The notes beneath the pieces were generated by a model, which saw only the letters and a program-made list of their open reading frames with translations, made no database searches and was not told the DNA's origin. From NCBI RefSeq assembly GCF_006912135.1, contig NZ_VIRS01000020.1, positions 62,001-126,000 on the forward strand: a stretch of 64,000 nt of DNA, given 5' to 3'. Every line of letters starts with the position of its first letter. Position 1 is the first letter of the stretch. The position numbers were made by a program, and so were the translations under genes. Positions 4,898 to 51,102 of the stretch are shown here, piece after piece. The DNA is from Cryptosporangium phraense. Its GTDB lineage: Bacteria; Actinomycetota; Actinomycetes; Mycobacteriales; Cryptosporangiaceae.

Positions 4898-5635
4898 TTA
4901 CGCGGTGGGCACGTGCTCGACGTCCAGCTCGACCAGGTGAGCCGGGAAGCGCGTGTAGCCGACCGACAGCGGTTCCCCGCCGGGCAGCGCGTCGAGAGCC
5001 CGGGCCACCAGCACCACCGCGCCGGGTGAGAGCTCGAGATCGCTCAGCTCGTCCGCGGTGGCGTGCCGGGCGCTGATCGTCGTCGAGACCCGGACGTAGT
5101 CGTCGATGCCGCCGGCCTCCAGCGACCGGGTGATCGAGCCGGTGCGCCGGAAGTGCGCGGCCAGGTCGGGCGCCCGGCCGAGGCCGAACCAGTGGGTGCC
5201 CCGCGAGATCGGACGCCCGGACAGCGACCGGACGACCTCCAGCCGCACCACCTGCTCACCCAGCACCGCGGCCACGTCCGGGGGCGGGACCTCGATCGCG
5301 GTCTCCAGCAGCCGGGCCGACGCGTCGCCGGAGCGCGGGCCGAGCGAGTCGGTCATCCGGGTGCGGGTGCCGATCCGGTGCGTGACCAGCGTGTGCGGGG
5401 CCACGAACGTGCCGCTGCCCCGGCGGGCCTCGACCAGCCCCTCGGCCGCCAGCGCGGCCACCGCCCGGCGGACCGTGTGCCGGTTGACCGCGAACCGCTC
5501 GGCCAGCTCGGCCTCGCTCGGGAGCCTCCCGCCGACCGGGATCCGGCCGTCGGTGACGTCGACGCGCAGCTCCTCGGCGATGAGCCGCCAGGCGGCATAG
5601 CCGCTGGGCCCCTCGTTCGCTGTCACCGCGTTCAC
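4898..5635 (-). CDS. phnF: PhnF-type GntR/UTRA regulator of the C-P lyase operon
   Basis: About 245 residues. The winged helix occupies roughly residues 15-80 (IAEELRVDVTDG, then LPSEAELAERFAVNRHTVRRAVAALAAEGLVEARRGSGTFV), followed by a UTRA domain ending YTRFPAHLVELDVEHV. It matches PhnF, the repressor of phn operons, and is divergent from phnG. The GTG at 5635 is chosen because GGAGGG lies just upstream; a GTG at 5650 would overlap that ribosome site. The perfect palindrome at 5697-5722 is its likely operator. In mycobacteria PhnF represses until phosphate is scarce; the same logic probably applies here. Confidence 0.85.
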   Translation of the reverse strand: MNAVTANEGPSGYAAWRLIAEELRVDVTDGRIPVGGRLPSEAELAERFAVNRHTVRRAVAALAAEGLVEARRGSGTFVAPHTLVTHRIGTRTRMTDSLGPRSGDASARLLETAIEVPPPDVAAVLGEQVVRLEVVRSLSGRPISRGTHWFGLGRAPDLAAHFRRTGSITRSLEAGGIDDYVRVSTTISARHATADELSDLELSPGAVVLVARALDALPGGEPLSVGYTRFPAHLVELDVEHVPTA

Positions 5636-48857: not shown

Positions 48858-50054
48858 ATGCCCAAGATCCTGATCTCCGGCGCCGGAATTGCCGGCCCCG
48901 CCCTCGCCTCCGCCCTGTCCCGCCGCGGCCACGGCCCCGGCCCCGGCCACGGCCACGGCCACGGCCACGGCCACGGCCACGACCACGACGTCACGGTCGT
49001 CGAGGTAGCCCCGAACCTGCGCGAGTCCGGCTTCGCCGTGGACTTCCGCGGCCCCACCCACGAACGCGTGCTCGAGCGCCTCGGCGTCCTCGACGAACTG
49101 CGCGCCCTCCAGACCGGCGGGTCGGCGATGATCACCGTCGACGCCCAGGACCGGGAGATCTTCCGGCTCCCGGCCGAGTTCACCGGCGGCGACCTCGAGG
49201 TACTCCGCCGCGACCTCTCGGCGGTGCTGTACCGGCGCAGCGCCCCGCACACCGACTACCGCTTCGGCACGTCGATCACCGCGCTCAGCGAGTCGCCGGA
49301 AGGCGTCCGCGTGGAATTGAGCAGTGGGGAGCGGCTGACCGCGGACCTGGTGGTCGGAGCGGACGGAGTCCGGTCGGCGGTCCGCCGGCTGCGGTTCGGT
49401 CCGCACGAGCGGTTCGTGAAGAACCTCGGCTACTGCATCGCGGGCTGGAGCTTCCCGACCGACCTCGACCTCGGGCCGGACGCGCGCCACTACGGCGTGC
49501 CGGGCCGCACCGCGGCCCTGTCCGGCGGGAACGGCACCGCGACCGCGCTCGCGGTCTTCACCGCGCCCGAGGAGATCCCGTACGACGACCCCCGCGGCCT
49601 GATCCGGCGCACCTACGCCGACCTCGGGTGGCACGTCCCGGAGATGCTGGCTGGCCTCTCCGAGGCCTCCGACATCTACTTCGACGCGATCAGCCGCGTC
49701 TCGGCCCGGTCCTGGACGACCGGCCGCGTCGCGCTACTGGGGGACGCCGCCTGGGGCGTCACGCTGGGCGGAATGGGCGTCGGGACCGGGATCGTCGGGG
49801 CCTACGTGCTGGCCGGGGAGCTGGCGTCGTCCGGCGGTGACGTGGCCACCGCGCTGGCCGCCTACGAGCAGCGGATGCGCCCCTACGCGGGCCGCTGGCA
49901 GCGGGGCGCGCACCCGGGCCGGTTCCTGGCCCCGAAGACCGCCTACGGCCTGTGGGCCCGCAACACGATGCTGAGCAACGCGCTGGTCCGCCGCTCGATG
50001 CTCGGCGGCACCCGCAAGCTCGCCGACGAACCCGCCCTGCCGGCCTACAACTAA
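48858..50054 (+). CDS. FAD-dependent monooxygenase with a His-Gly repeat insert
   Basis: 398 residues. ISGAGIAGPALASALSRRG begins the FAD fold; LTADLVVGADGVRSAVRRLRFG and VALLGDAAWGVTLGGMGVGTGIVGAYVLAGEL are the later FAD motifs, as in TetX/PHBH-like hydroxylases. Residues 24-44 are an insert of GH and GP dipeptides ending HDHD, from a 6-bp repeat GGCCAC at 48927-48986; family members go straight from RRGH to DVTVVE. It lies in the loop between the first helix and second strand, so folding may tolerate it, and the histidines could bind metal. The stop TAA is supplied by the 169-bp element at 50052. Confidence 0.86.
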   Translation: MPKILISGAGIAGPALASALSRRGHGPGPGHGHGHGHGHGHDHDVTVVEVAPNLRESGFAVDFRGPTHERVLERLGVLDELRALQTGGSAMITVDAQDREIFRLPAEFTGGDLEVLRRDLSAVLYRRSAPHTDYRFGTSITALSESPEGVRVELSSGERLTADLVVGADGVRSAVRRLRFGPHERFVKNLGYCIAGWSFPTDLDLGPDARHYGVPGRTAALSGGNGTATALAVFTAPEEIPYDDPRGLIRRTYADLGWHVPEMLAGLSEASDIYFDAISRVSARSWTTGRVALLGDAAWGVTLGGMGVGTGIVGAYVLAGELASSGGDVATALAAYEQRMRPYAGRWQRGAHPGRFLAPKTAYGLWARNTMLSNALVRRSMLGGTRKLADEPALPAYN

Positions 50055-50220
50055 GGCGTGTTTCATGAGCCAGCAGCCCACCGTGGCCGCGACCCAGACG
50101 ACGACCGGAGGCGTTGTCGCCTTGTCCGGATACAACAGCGGTATCCGGACAAGGCTCCGCCTTGCCGGATCGCCGCCTGGGCCACGCCCACGGCGTCCTG
50201 AACTCATGAAACACGCCTTA
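50052..50220. repeat. 169-bp near-palindromic MITE-like element
   Basis: Perfect 18-bp terminal inverted repeats TAAGGCGTGTTTCATGAG at 50052-50069 and 50203-50220. The interior is also self-complementary with a few mismatches, down to a perfect 14-bp central stem (GCCTTGTCCGGATA, from 50120 region, against its complement). The whole unit can fold as one long hairpin. It has no gene. The ends carry TA, as expected if a TA target was duplicated. It lies exactly between two convergent genes and both stops are its terminal TAA. It may be a miniature insertion element, and would act as a two-way terminator. Confidence 0.75.
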
Positions 50221-51102
50221 GACGTCCCGGGGCAACTCGCGGGCCAGGGCGACGAACGCGGTGGCGGCGGGCGAGAGCCCTCCGGTGCGCCAGGTCATGA
50301 CCGCGCCGTGCCGCAGGCGCGGGGTGGTGGACACGACGACGGCGCCGCGGCCGGCCGCGTCCTCGGCCAGGCAGAGCGGGAGCAGCGTCGCGCCCGCCCC
50401 GGCCAGCACGAGCGGCACGATCGCGGCCCGGTGCGTGGTCTCGACCGCGACCCGCGGCGGCGCGCCGCACAGGCTCAGCTCGCGGTCGACCAGCGTCCGC
50501 ATCGCGGTGCCCTCCGGGGTGGACACCAGCGGCCGCCCGGCCAGCTCGTCGACCGGGATCGGACGGCCCGGCTCGGCCCCGTCGCCGGGCGGGAGCACCG
50601 CGTAGAACTCCTGGTCGGGCAGGCGTAAGTGGTCCAGCCCGTCGACCCCGCCGGGCGACTCGGCCAACCCGAGCTCGCACTCCCCGGACAGCACCATCCG
50701 GGTCACCGCGTCGTCGAGCTCCGGGTCGGTGACCCGGACGTCCACCCGCTCGTGGTCGGACCGGAACCGTCCGATCAGGCCGGCCAGCGGGTCGACGGCC
50801 AGCGTGGTGAGCGCGACGATGTCGAGGCGGCCACCGGTCAGCCCGATCACGCTCTCGACCGACGCCCGCGCGGTCGCGAAGTCGCGCAGCACCTGCTTGG
50901 CCGGGCGGACCAGGGCCTCGCCGGCCGCGGTCAGGCCGACCCCGCGGCCCAGCCGGTCGAAGAGCGGGGTGCCGAGATCCCGTTCCAGGGCCCGGATCGC
51001 CTGCGAGAGCGAGGGCTGCGCCACCCGGAGCCGCCGTCCGGCGCTGGTGAAGCTGCCGGTCGCGACGATCGTGAGGAAGTATTCGAGCTGGCGGCGATCC
51101 AT
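50218..51102 (-). CDS. LysR family transcriptional regulator
   Basis: 294 residues. HTH at 1-60: RRQLEYFLTIVATGSFTSAGRRLRVAQPSLSQAIRALERDLGTPLFDRLGRGVGLTAAGEAL. The LysR substrate domain follows (RLDIVALTTLAVDPLAGLIGRF, CELGLAESPGG, GTAMRTLVDREL, AIVPLVLAGAGATLLP). Divergent from the DUF3604 gene over 92 bp, with a LysR-type box between. Its stop TAA lies in the terminal repeat of the hairpin element, so the last codons may have been altered by its arrival. Confidence 0.9.
   Translation of the reverse strand: MDRRQLEYFLTIVATGSFTSAGRRLRVAQPSLSQAIRALERDLGTPLFDRLGRGVGLTAAGEALVRPAKQVLRDFATARASVESVIGLTGGRLDIVALTTLAVDPLAGLIGRFRSDHERVDVRVTDPELDDAVTRMVLSGECELGLAESPGGVDGLDHLRLPDQEFYAVLPPGDGAEPGRPIPVDELAGRPLVSTPEGTAMRTLVDRELSLCGAPPRVAVETTHRAAIVPLVLAGAGATLLPLCLAEDAAGRGAVVVSTTPRLRHGAVMTWRTGGLSPAATAFVALARELPRDV

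Follow-up and report, generated by a model that had tools for sequence, protein, structure and literature searches.

The stretch of DNA that we analysed (the window; 64,000 nucleotides of the Cryptosporangium phraense assembly GCF_006912135.1) contains two convergent genes that meet at a 169-bp near-complete palindrome, which runs from TA to TA at positions 50052–50220. The plus-strand gene (48858–50054) encodes an FAD-binding monooxygenase-type protein (Pfam FAD_binding_3), and its stop codon, the TAA at 50052–50054, is the left end of the palindrome; the minus-strand gene (50218–51102) encodes a LysR-type regulator (HTH_1 and LysR_substrate), and its TAA stop at 50218–50220 is the right end. 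The open reading frames thus confirm the earlier claim, made in a first-pass annotation of this DNA, that both genes stop on the terminal TAA of the hairpin element. The left TA (50052–50053) forms positions 1 and 2 of the monooxygenase stop codon and the right TA (50219–50220) is part of the LysR stop; we read the two as the target repeat, on the basis of this sequence and of the non-CTAG sites of other copies described below. The monooxygenase also carries a His-Gly repeat, GHGPGPGHGHGHGHGHGHDHD, within its N-terminal FAD-binding region.

The ends of the element are 18-base perfect inverted repeats, TAAGGCGTGTTTCATGAG, located at 50052–50069 on the plus strand and at 50203–50220 on the minus strand, exactly as originally annotated. 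With 12 flanking bases on each side, the element folds as single-stranded DNA at −64 kcal/mol, as compared to −35.0 ± 3.3 for shuffled sequences (z = −8.84; 0 of 200 shuffles were equally good), which agrees with the full-length hairpin proposed at first pass. The perfect inner stem is also present, but its length is 15 bp and not 14 bp: positions 50119–50133 pair with 50141–50155 around a 7-base loop, and the stem is supported by covariation (helix 6, 9/10 pairs changed on both sides). Reading the strand that we refer to as R, which is the minus strand at this locus, conserved GGCAAGGCGGAG (50155–50166) forms the 5′ side of an internal loop and conserved CGACAACGC (50111–50119) its 3′ side, both as defined in alignment A1 (see below). 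The outer core arm CCCAGGCGGCGATCCGG (50165–50181, R strand) is assigned by alignment and covariation to its partner CCGGTCGTCGTCTGGG (50093–50108, R strand), the source of the conserved G-U pairs in columns 49–128 and 52–125. As RNA, the R strand of the window copy folds at −134.6 kcal/mol and the other strand at −105.9 kcal/mol. No T-tract or T-run could be read at either end of the hairpin, which sets it apart from Rho-independent terminators. An Rfam scan of positions 49800–50500 yielded only matches below the gathering threshold (the best, MIR5534, scoring 27.5 bits versus 79), and the window copy had zero matches in phage and plasmid collections at E 1e-3.

Copies in the C. phraense genome

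Searches of the 8.46-Mb C. phraense assembly (G000) with the element and with its ends yielded 17 copies in total, 16 of them in addition to the window copy; further copies had been predicted from the window sequence, and the refuting case, a sole copy conserved as a plain terminator, does not apply. The copies range from 41 to 183 bp, and five full or near-full-length matches besides the window copy show 97, 95, 86, 85 and 78% identity. One core is common to two types of copy that differ in their ends. In the seven A-type copies, one of which is an inner-deletion form of 109 bp, the TA is followed by AGGCGTGTTTCAT or GGYCGTRYTTCA; the ten B-type copies, with ends GGCCCTGTCCTGCGAATC or near it, comprise seven long forms (168–182 bp) and three deletion derivatives (70, 53 and 41 bp). 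All of the deletion derivatives, the 109-bp form included, retain the ends. Few base differences separate the seven long B-type copies, and their movement therefore looks recent. The first 17 bases of the window copy’s left end, with up to two mismatches allowed, match only six ends of three copies genome-wide.

All 17 copies are located at YTAR (CTAG in 13 cases, TTAG in two, TTAA and CTAA in one each), and 16 have TA at both ends, in keeping with the role assigned to the terminal TA at first pass; the remaining copy, A_C4, has CA at one end. The non-CTAG sites agree with a repeated TA, not with a 4-bp repeat. The 169-bp palindrome is a mobile element, present in multiple copies at TA within YTAR.

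A longer apical loop (approximately 12–15 extra bases, often CAGCTGC...AGCGGCAGC) is found under both end types in three genomes (L098 4810–4992, L101 4947–5128, L115 5053–5233, L121 4924–5104 and L122 4902–5068), a pattern resembling modular exchange of loops and ends. In G002, a genome of the same genus, a degraded copy (L124, near 4970–5180) is followed by repeats of the core arm GGCGGCTGAGCGGAGCCG.

Spread across actinobacteria and the fold of one strand

DNA similarity searches gave matches in 11 of 61 genomes, from the genus up to the order, with strong matches in C. phraense itself and in G002 and G003 of its genus. A core pattern that includes GGCAAGGCGGAG in its F-strand form, and that found the Micromonospora and Sporichthyaceae copies, matched 14 stretches: four in Micromonospora, seven in one Sporichthyaceae MAG, one in a Streptosporangiaceae MAG and two in Microbacteriaceae, the last two reading like coding sequence. 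Core matches L138 and L139, in sequence that looks coding, were set aside by eye. We then used a covariance model built from 31 copies (alignment A1, with L131, L132, L134, L136 and L140 kept out). With the own genome included in both scans, it matched 19 of 81 genomes and 13 of 41 genera in the order (E up to 1e-3), and 13 of 79 genomes and 9 of 54 genera in the class (E up to 1e-5); G000, G002, G003 and G025 match by construction since their copies are in the model, and so does G086, apparently the source of the Sporichthyaceae copies in it. The count per genome reaches 35 (class scan, both strands counted). Among the 94 matches fetched from outside the genus, which were drawn from the better matches, 93 are 160–169 bp long; shorter matches are also present (L197, 145 bp; L199, 63 bp; L200, 116 bp). 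The fetched set covers 10 of at least 11 listed places in G119 and 13 of at least 14 in G073, as well as 10, 12, 8, 4 and 2 places from larger totals in G096, G112, G086, G008 and G014, respectively. Across genera, the core is kept while the ends differ.

In G073 (C1, 3523003–3523329; L240) two elements lie head to tail and, judging by the coordinates, overlap in their terminal bases. The ends of copies L128 (Micromonospora acroterricola) and L141 (Micromonospora sp. MP36) differ, yet the 45 bp that come next are almost identical in the two, so that both copies may lie at a single orthologous site or at the end of genes from a single family.

In alignment A1, from which both structure and covariation derive, 35 of 52 pairs are changed on both sides, and 95.3% of the cells are paired, as compared to 78.6% in shuffles and 33–43% when slid. 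Column pair 52–125 is G-U in 16, U-G in 13 and U-A in 2 of the 31 copies. Over 42 copies, which are related and thus do not represent independent events, the arm mismatches amount to 207.5 G-U versus 30.5 A-C when counted on the R strand, i.e. the one carrying GGCAAGGCGGAG; G-U is in excess in 40 of these copies, and the R strand folds better as RNA in 41. This count omits copies shorter than 120 bp (A_C73, B_C45, B_C55, b_C5 and L131) and includes G3_C56 as oriented by core alignment. For motif-oriented copies from six genomes, the R strand folds better in 31/31 cases, with 126.5 G-U versus 26 A-C (28 of 59 loci were not orientable by motif and are uncounted); one of the 31, L242, has more A-C than G-U. 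Four more genomes, among which G086 overlaps the earlier set, gave 27/27 and 100 G-U versus 31 A-C (13 of 40 loci uncounted for the same reason). The G-U excess is small in G096 (30.5 versus 19).

In duplex form the two strands of a palindrome are equivalent; this asymmetry therefore points to selection acting on one strand as RNA or single-stranded DNA, unless the R strand is subject to biased mutation through its own transcription. Relative to the neighbouring genes, the elements are co-oriented in 15 and anti-oriented in 15 cases at single-stop genes, and in 18 and 29 cases at tandem junctions (91 copies sampled, two of them unplaceable, 28 oriented by the model rather than by the motif). 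We considered transcription of the R strand together with a neighbouring gene and rejected it, as the 15-to-15 split shows no bias. Given this near-random orientation, the favoured strand seems not to function as the 3′ end of the host gene; it more likely serves the element, and one strand seems to be selected for the element itself.

Placement at stop codons

To relate the copies to gene ends, we predicted genes with a caller of our own that is based on codon usage. In C. phraense, 16 of the 17 copies are located at stop codons, seven of them where two convergent genes share the stop and nine at single stops. Across 800 kb of background from the same genome, 70 of 428 non-coding YTAR sites (16%) are at stops, 15 of them shared and 55 single, which corresponds to binomial P values of 4e-12 for any stop and 9e-7 for shared stops. 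In G119, which belongs to another family, all 10 of the 10 copies fetched have identical ends and lie at CTAG stops, three of which are shared (the stop class of two loci differs between two analyses, the totals being unchanged), whereas in 400 kb of background 9 of 66 non-coding CTAG sites (14%) are at stops and none is shared (P 2e-9). Both backgrounds exclude sites in genes and stops inside another gene (10 in C. phraense, 1 in G119); with the 10 excluded sites, the C. phraense background becomes 80 of 438. At convergent junctions of C. phraense, 10/10 copies are at stops, as compared to 35 of the 118 YTAR sites that are either at stops or intergenic.

In other genomes we compared the copies with the non-coding YTAR sites of the same loci. 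The fraction at stops is 9/15 for copies versus 6/22 for sites in G015, 6/14 versus 6/41 in G035, 5/8 versus 4/18 in G086, 3/10 versus 1/20 in G096, 2/13 versus 2/15 in G073, 0/6 versus 1/7 in G080 and 1/4 versus 4/9 in G008; in G112 the relation is reversed, with 3/12 versus 12/18. For G002 and G003 combined, 6 of 19 copies are at stops. The preference for stop codons is strong in two genomes, moderate in some, and absent or reversed in others. Targeting of stops and purging of other insertions both fit these data, which do not separate the two. A motif in the target flank was not decisive as a cause, with G two bases before Y in 59% of C. phraense copies, 32% of intergenic sites and 40% of single stops. 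Nor does age, with only the youngest copies residing at stops, account for the pattern: the ends in G035 are also nearly identical, yet only 6/14 of its copies are at stops.

An insertion, as proposed at first pass, would leave relatives with an empty site and longer proteins. We queried seven shared-stop loci of C. phraense in relatives G001–G004. An empty site was found at the B_C4 locus, which in G001 and G002 runs straight through without the element, its contiguous site reading GTAG in one relative and TTAG in the other, not CTAG. Longer proteins were not: the plus-strand gene there ends at the same codon, and the joined flanks of the window copy form a CTAG that already holds both stop codons. 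At A_C73 (in G001, G002 and G003) and B_C32 (in G001 and G003) both flanks were found with other material in between: approximately 50 bp for A_C73 in G001 and for B_C32 in both relatives, 110 bp for A_C73 in G003, and 926 bp for A_C73 in G002. The relatives hold unrelated spacers between TGA stops at these two loci, with no empty CTAG; four of the spacers fold as RNA at −31.7 to −61.4 kcal/mol, values that come with no shuffle control. At the locus of the window copy two relatives match, on the LysR side alone; A_C6 and A_C27 match on one side only, and A_C72 has no convincing match in G001–G004.

The arrangement at A_C73 and B_C32 (TGA, another sequence, TCA) suggested stop-to-stop replacement of an old terminator by the element. 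This idea was weakened when nine element-free shared-stop junctions of C. phraense were queried: in 6 of the 12 comparisons that were readable from match coordinates alone, the relative has an extra spacer, and junctions thus turn over without the element. Since element-free shared-stop junctions also differ from those of relatives, the CTAG overlap could well have preceded the insertion.

Candidate transposase, rival readings and known systems

An autonomous element with the same ends, another expectation of the first-pass annotation, was not found in C. phraense: three end patterns recovered only the ends of short elements and four isolated two-mismatch matches, and among the PF13340 and PF13359 transposase hits the best six terminal-repeat candidates had no such ends. 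The initial description as a miniature inverted-repeat element therefore holds with respect to copy number and TA ends, but neither a partner in the same genome nor longer proteins were seen. A PF13340 search of four genomes detected a 943-bp element in G073, i.e. in another genus, located at CTAG with ends TAGGGCATGTCTGATAAT and TAGGGCGTGTCTGACAAA; its two reading frames match IS5-family transposase NF033580, PF13340 and PF01609. Its right end, TAGGGCGTGTCTGACAAAT, has 18/19 bases the same as the end of a Sporichthyaceae copy. Against chosen copies from other genomes the agreement is 16/19 (one G096 and one G073 copy) and 15/19 (G119); it is 11–13/19 for the C. phraense types and 12/19 for the window copy. 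Given the CTAG location of this element and its near-identity in ends to one copy group, the sequence comparison suggests that an IS5-type transposase probably moves the element. A different insertion sequence (PF13359 type, ends AGAGGACGTCTCGTAAC) also lies in CTAG in G003 (L227, about 1427–2419; L228, about 1133–2240).

We consider it probable that the palindrome, a non-autonomous transposable element (about 165 bp, to which the TA is added), is moved by an IS5-type transposase into CTAG stops and that one of its strands acts as a hairpin of RNA or single-stranded DNA. The transposase, of the IS5 type (DUF4096/DDE) and encoded outside the element, would recognise the terminal repeats and insert the element at CTAG. 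As a CTAG at a four-base convergent overlap holds both TAG stops and the TA is repeated, both proteins would keep their length; at the window site TAG would have become TAA. The R strand may act as an RNA hairpin, or as single-stranded DNA, in the element’s own life cycle, as suggested by the random orientation to neighbouring genes, and the hairpin would be tolerated at its landing site as a bidirectional 3′ end or putative terminator.

A more far-reaching version, which we regard as possible but rather doubtful, is that of a class-wide mobile structured RNA family: IS5-type copying would place it in CTAG stops, and it would persist through the hairpin of one strand, as RNA or single-stranded DNA, acting in trans for the spread. 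This hairpin, with its conserved GGCAAGGCGGAG/CGACAACGC internal loop, might bind RNase III, the transposase or some factor coupled to termination that directs insertions towards stop codons, and the same core would be re-used under many different terminal repeats.

It is unlikely that the element is an ordinary MITE, that is, an internally deleted IS5 relative that has no function itself, whose fold simply follows from its long inverted repeats, and which is seen at stops since genes rarely contain CTAG and insertions in other places do not persist. The IS5-like ends, the CTAG target, the retention of ends by the 109-, 70-, 53- and 41-bp derivatives, and the situation in G112, where copies are at stops less often than background sites, would all be expected of such an element. 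A strand-symmetric palindrome alone, however, cannot give 207.5 G-U versus 30.5 A-C; furthermore, the core is conserved across genera under differing ends, and the 10/10 copies at stops (versus 35/118) come from convergent junctions of C. phraense, where no promoter should need protecting.

Still less likely is a bidirectional terminator used by the host, spread by an insertion sequence and selected for separating overlapping convergent genes. The lack of a T-tract and the many copies away from gene ends speak against it, and host-level termination does not predict a one-strand fold in random orientation, even though the elements are enriched at shared stops and relatives at A_C73 and B_C32 hold unrelated sequences between the same genes, the four spacers folding at −31.7 to −61.4 kcal/mol (no shuffle control). 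Least likely of all is a REP/REPIN-like element that a Y1 (RAYT/IS200-type) transposase would move in single-stranded form: this would explain the one-strand fold and the TAG ends (as described in the part of the source available, GTAG REPs often give flanking ORFs TAG stops; PMC3733652), and a TA repeat looks no different from TA as the element's own termini, but it fits poorly with full-length terminal inverted repeats, with an IS5 DDE element whose ends almost match those of one copy group, and with one hairpin of ~165 bases instead of two short REPs.

We compared the element of the preferred reading, non-autonomous, probably IS5-moved and with a one-strand hairpin, with known systems. As a rule, bacterial MITEs are regarded as IS remnants confined to a single genus or a few genera. 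IS5-family insertion sequences (DUF4096 + DDE_Tnp_1 type) and their MITEs resemble the element in the end TAGGGCRTGTCTGAYAA, the CTAG site and the TA at both ends; unlike these insertion sequences, it contains no coding sequence, and its core was not seen by eye in that of G073. YPAL/RU-2 of Yersinia (about 168 bp), which inserts just past stop codons, is similar in size and in its stable RNA hairpin. The account of YPAL, as far as available, gives it no TA ends and target repeats of 3–26 bp (PMC2229807), whereas the present element ends in TA and has a target repeat of 2 bp. Correia/NEMIS, RUP and ERIC elements, from other bacteria, are similar by description: ~100–200 bp, with terminal inverted repeats, TA ends and long RNA stem-loops, NEMIS RNA being proposed as an RNase III substrate; strand-biased G-U conservation is absent from the available part of this account (PMC2229807). 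GTAG REPs are described, in the excerpt used, as palindromic repeats with 20–40 bp units tagged GTAG, the end often supplying TAG stops (PMC3733652); the element is instead one ~165-bp palindrome between TAs at CTAG. MITEs of Coxiella, likened here by description, are bacterial MITEs discussed together with small RNAs, to whose evolution the available text links them (PMC5896051). Frankia CTAG repeats (PMC6735867) were judged, from the text available, to be unrelated simple repeats. Among the titles and abstract openings listed from an open-access literature collection, none describes such an element family, which is weak evidence of absence.

The accounts of the compared elements, in the parts available, do not combine CTAG insertion, a class-wide core under changing ends and a one-strand fold. 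Compared with what was read from the window at first pass, the two kinds of ends, the class-wide spread, the strand bias and the stop-codon preference are new. The RNA-type fold, the length of ~165 bp and the internal-loop motif are kept across many actinobacterial families while the ends change, and the element exceeds an ordinary MITE in two ways: its placement at stop codons, strong in two genomes of different families, and its one-strand G-U bias. This makes testable whether a small transposon can carry a working RNA and whether insertion is steered to gene ends, where it would do little harm.
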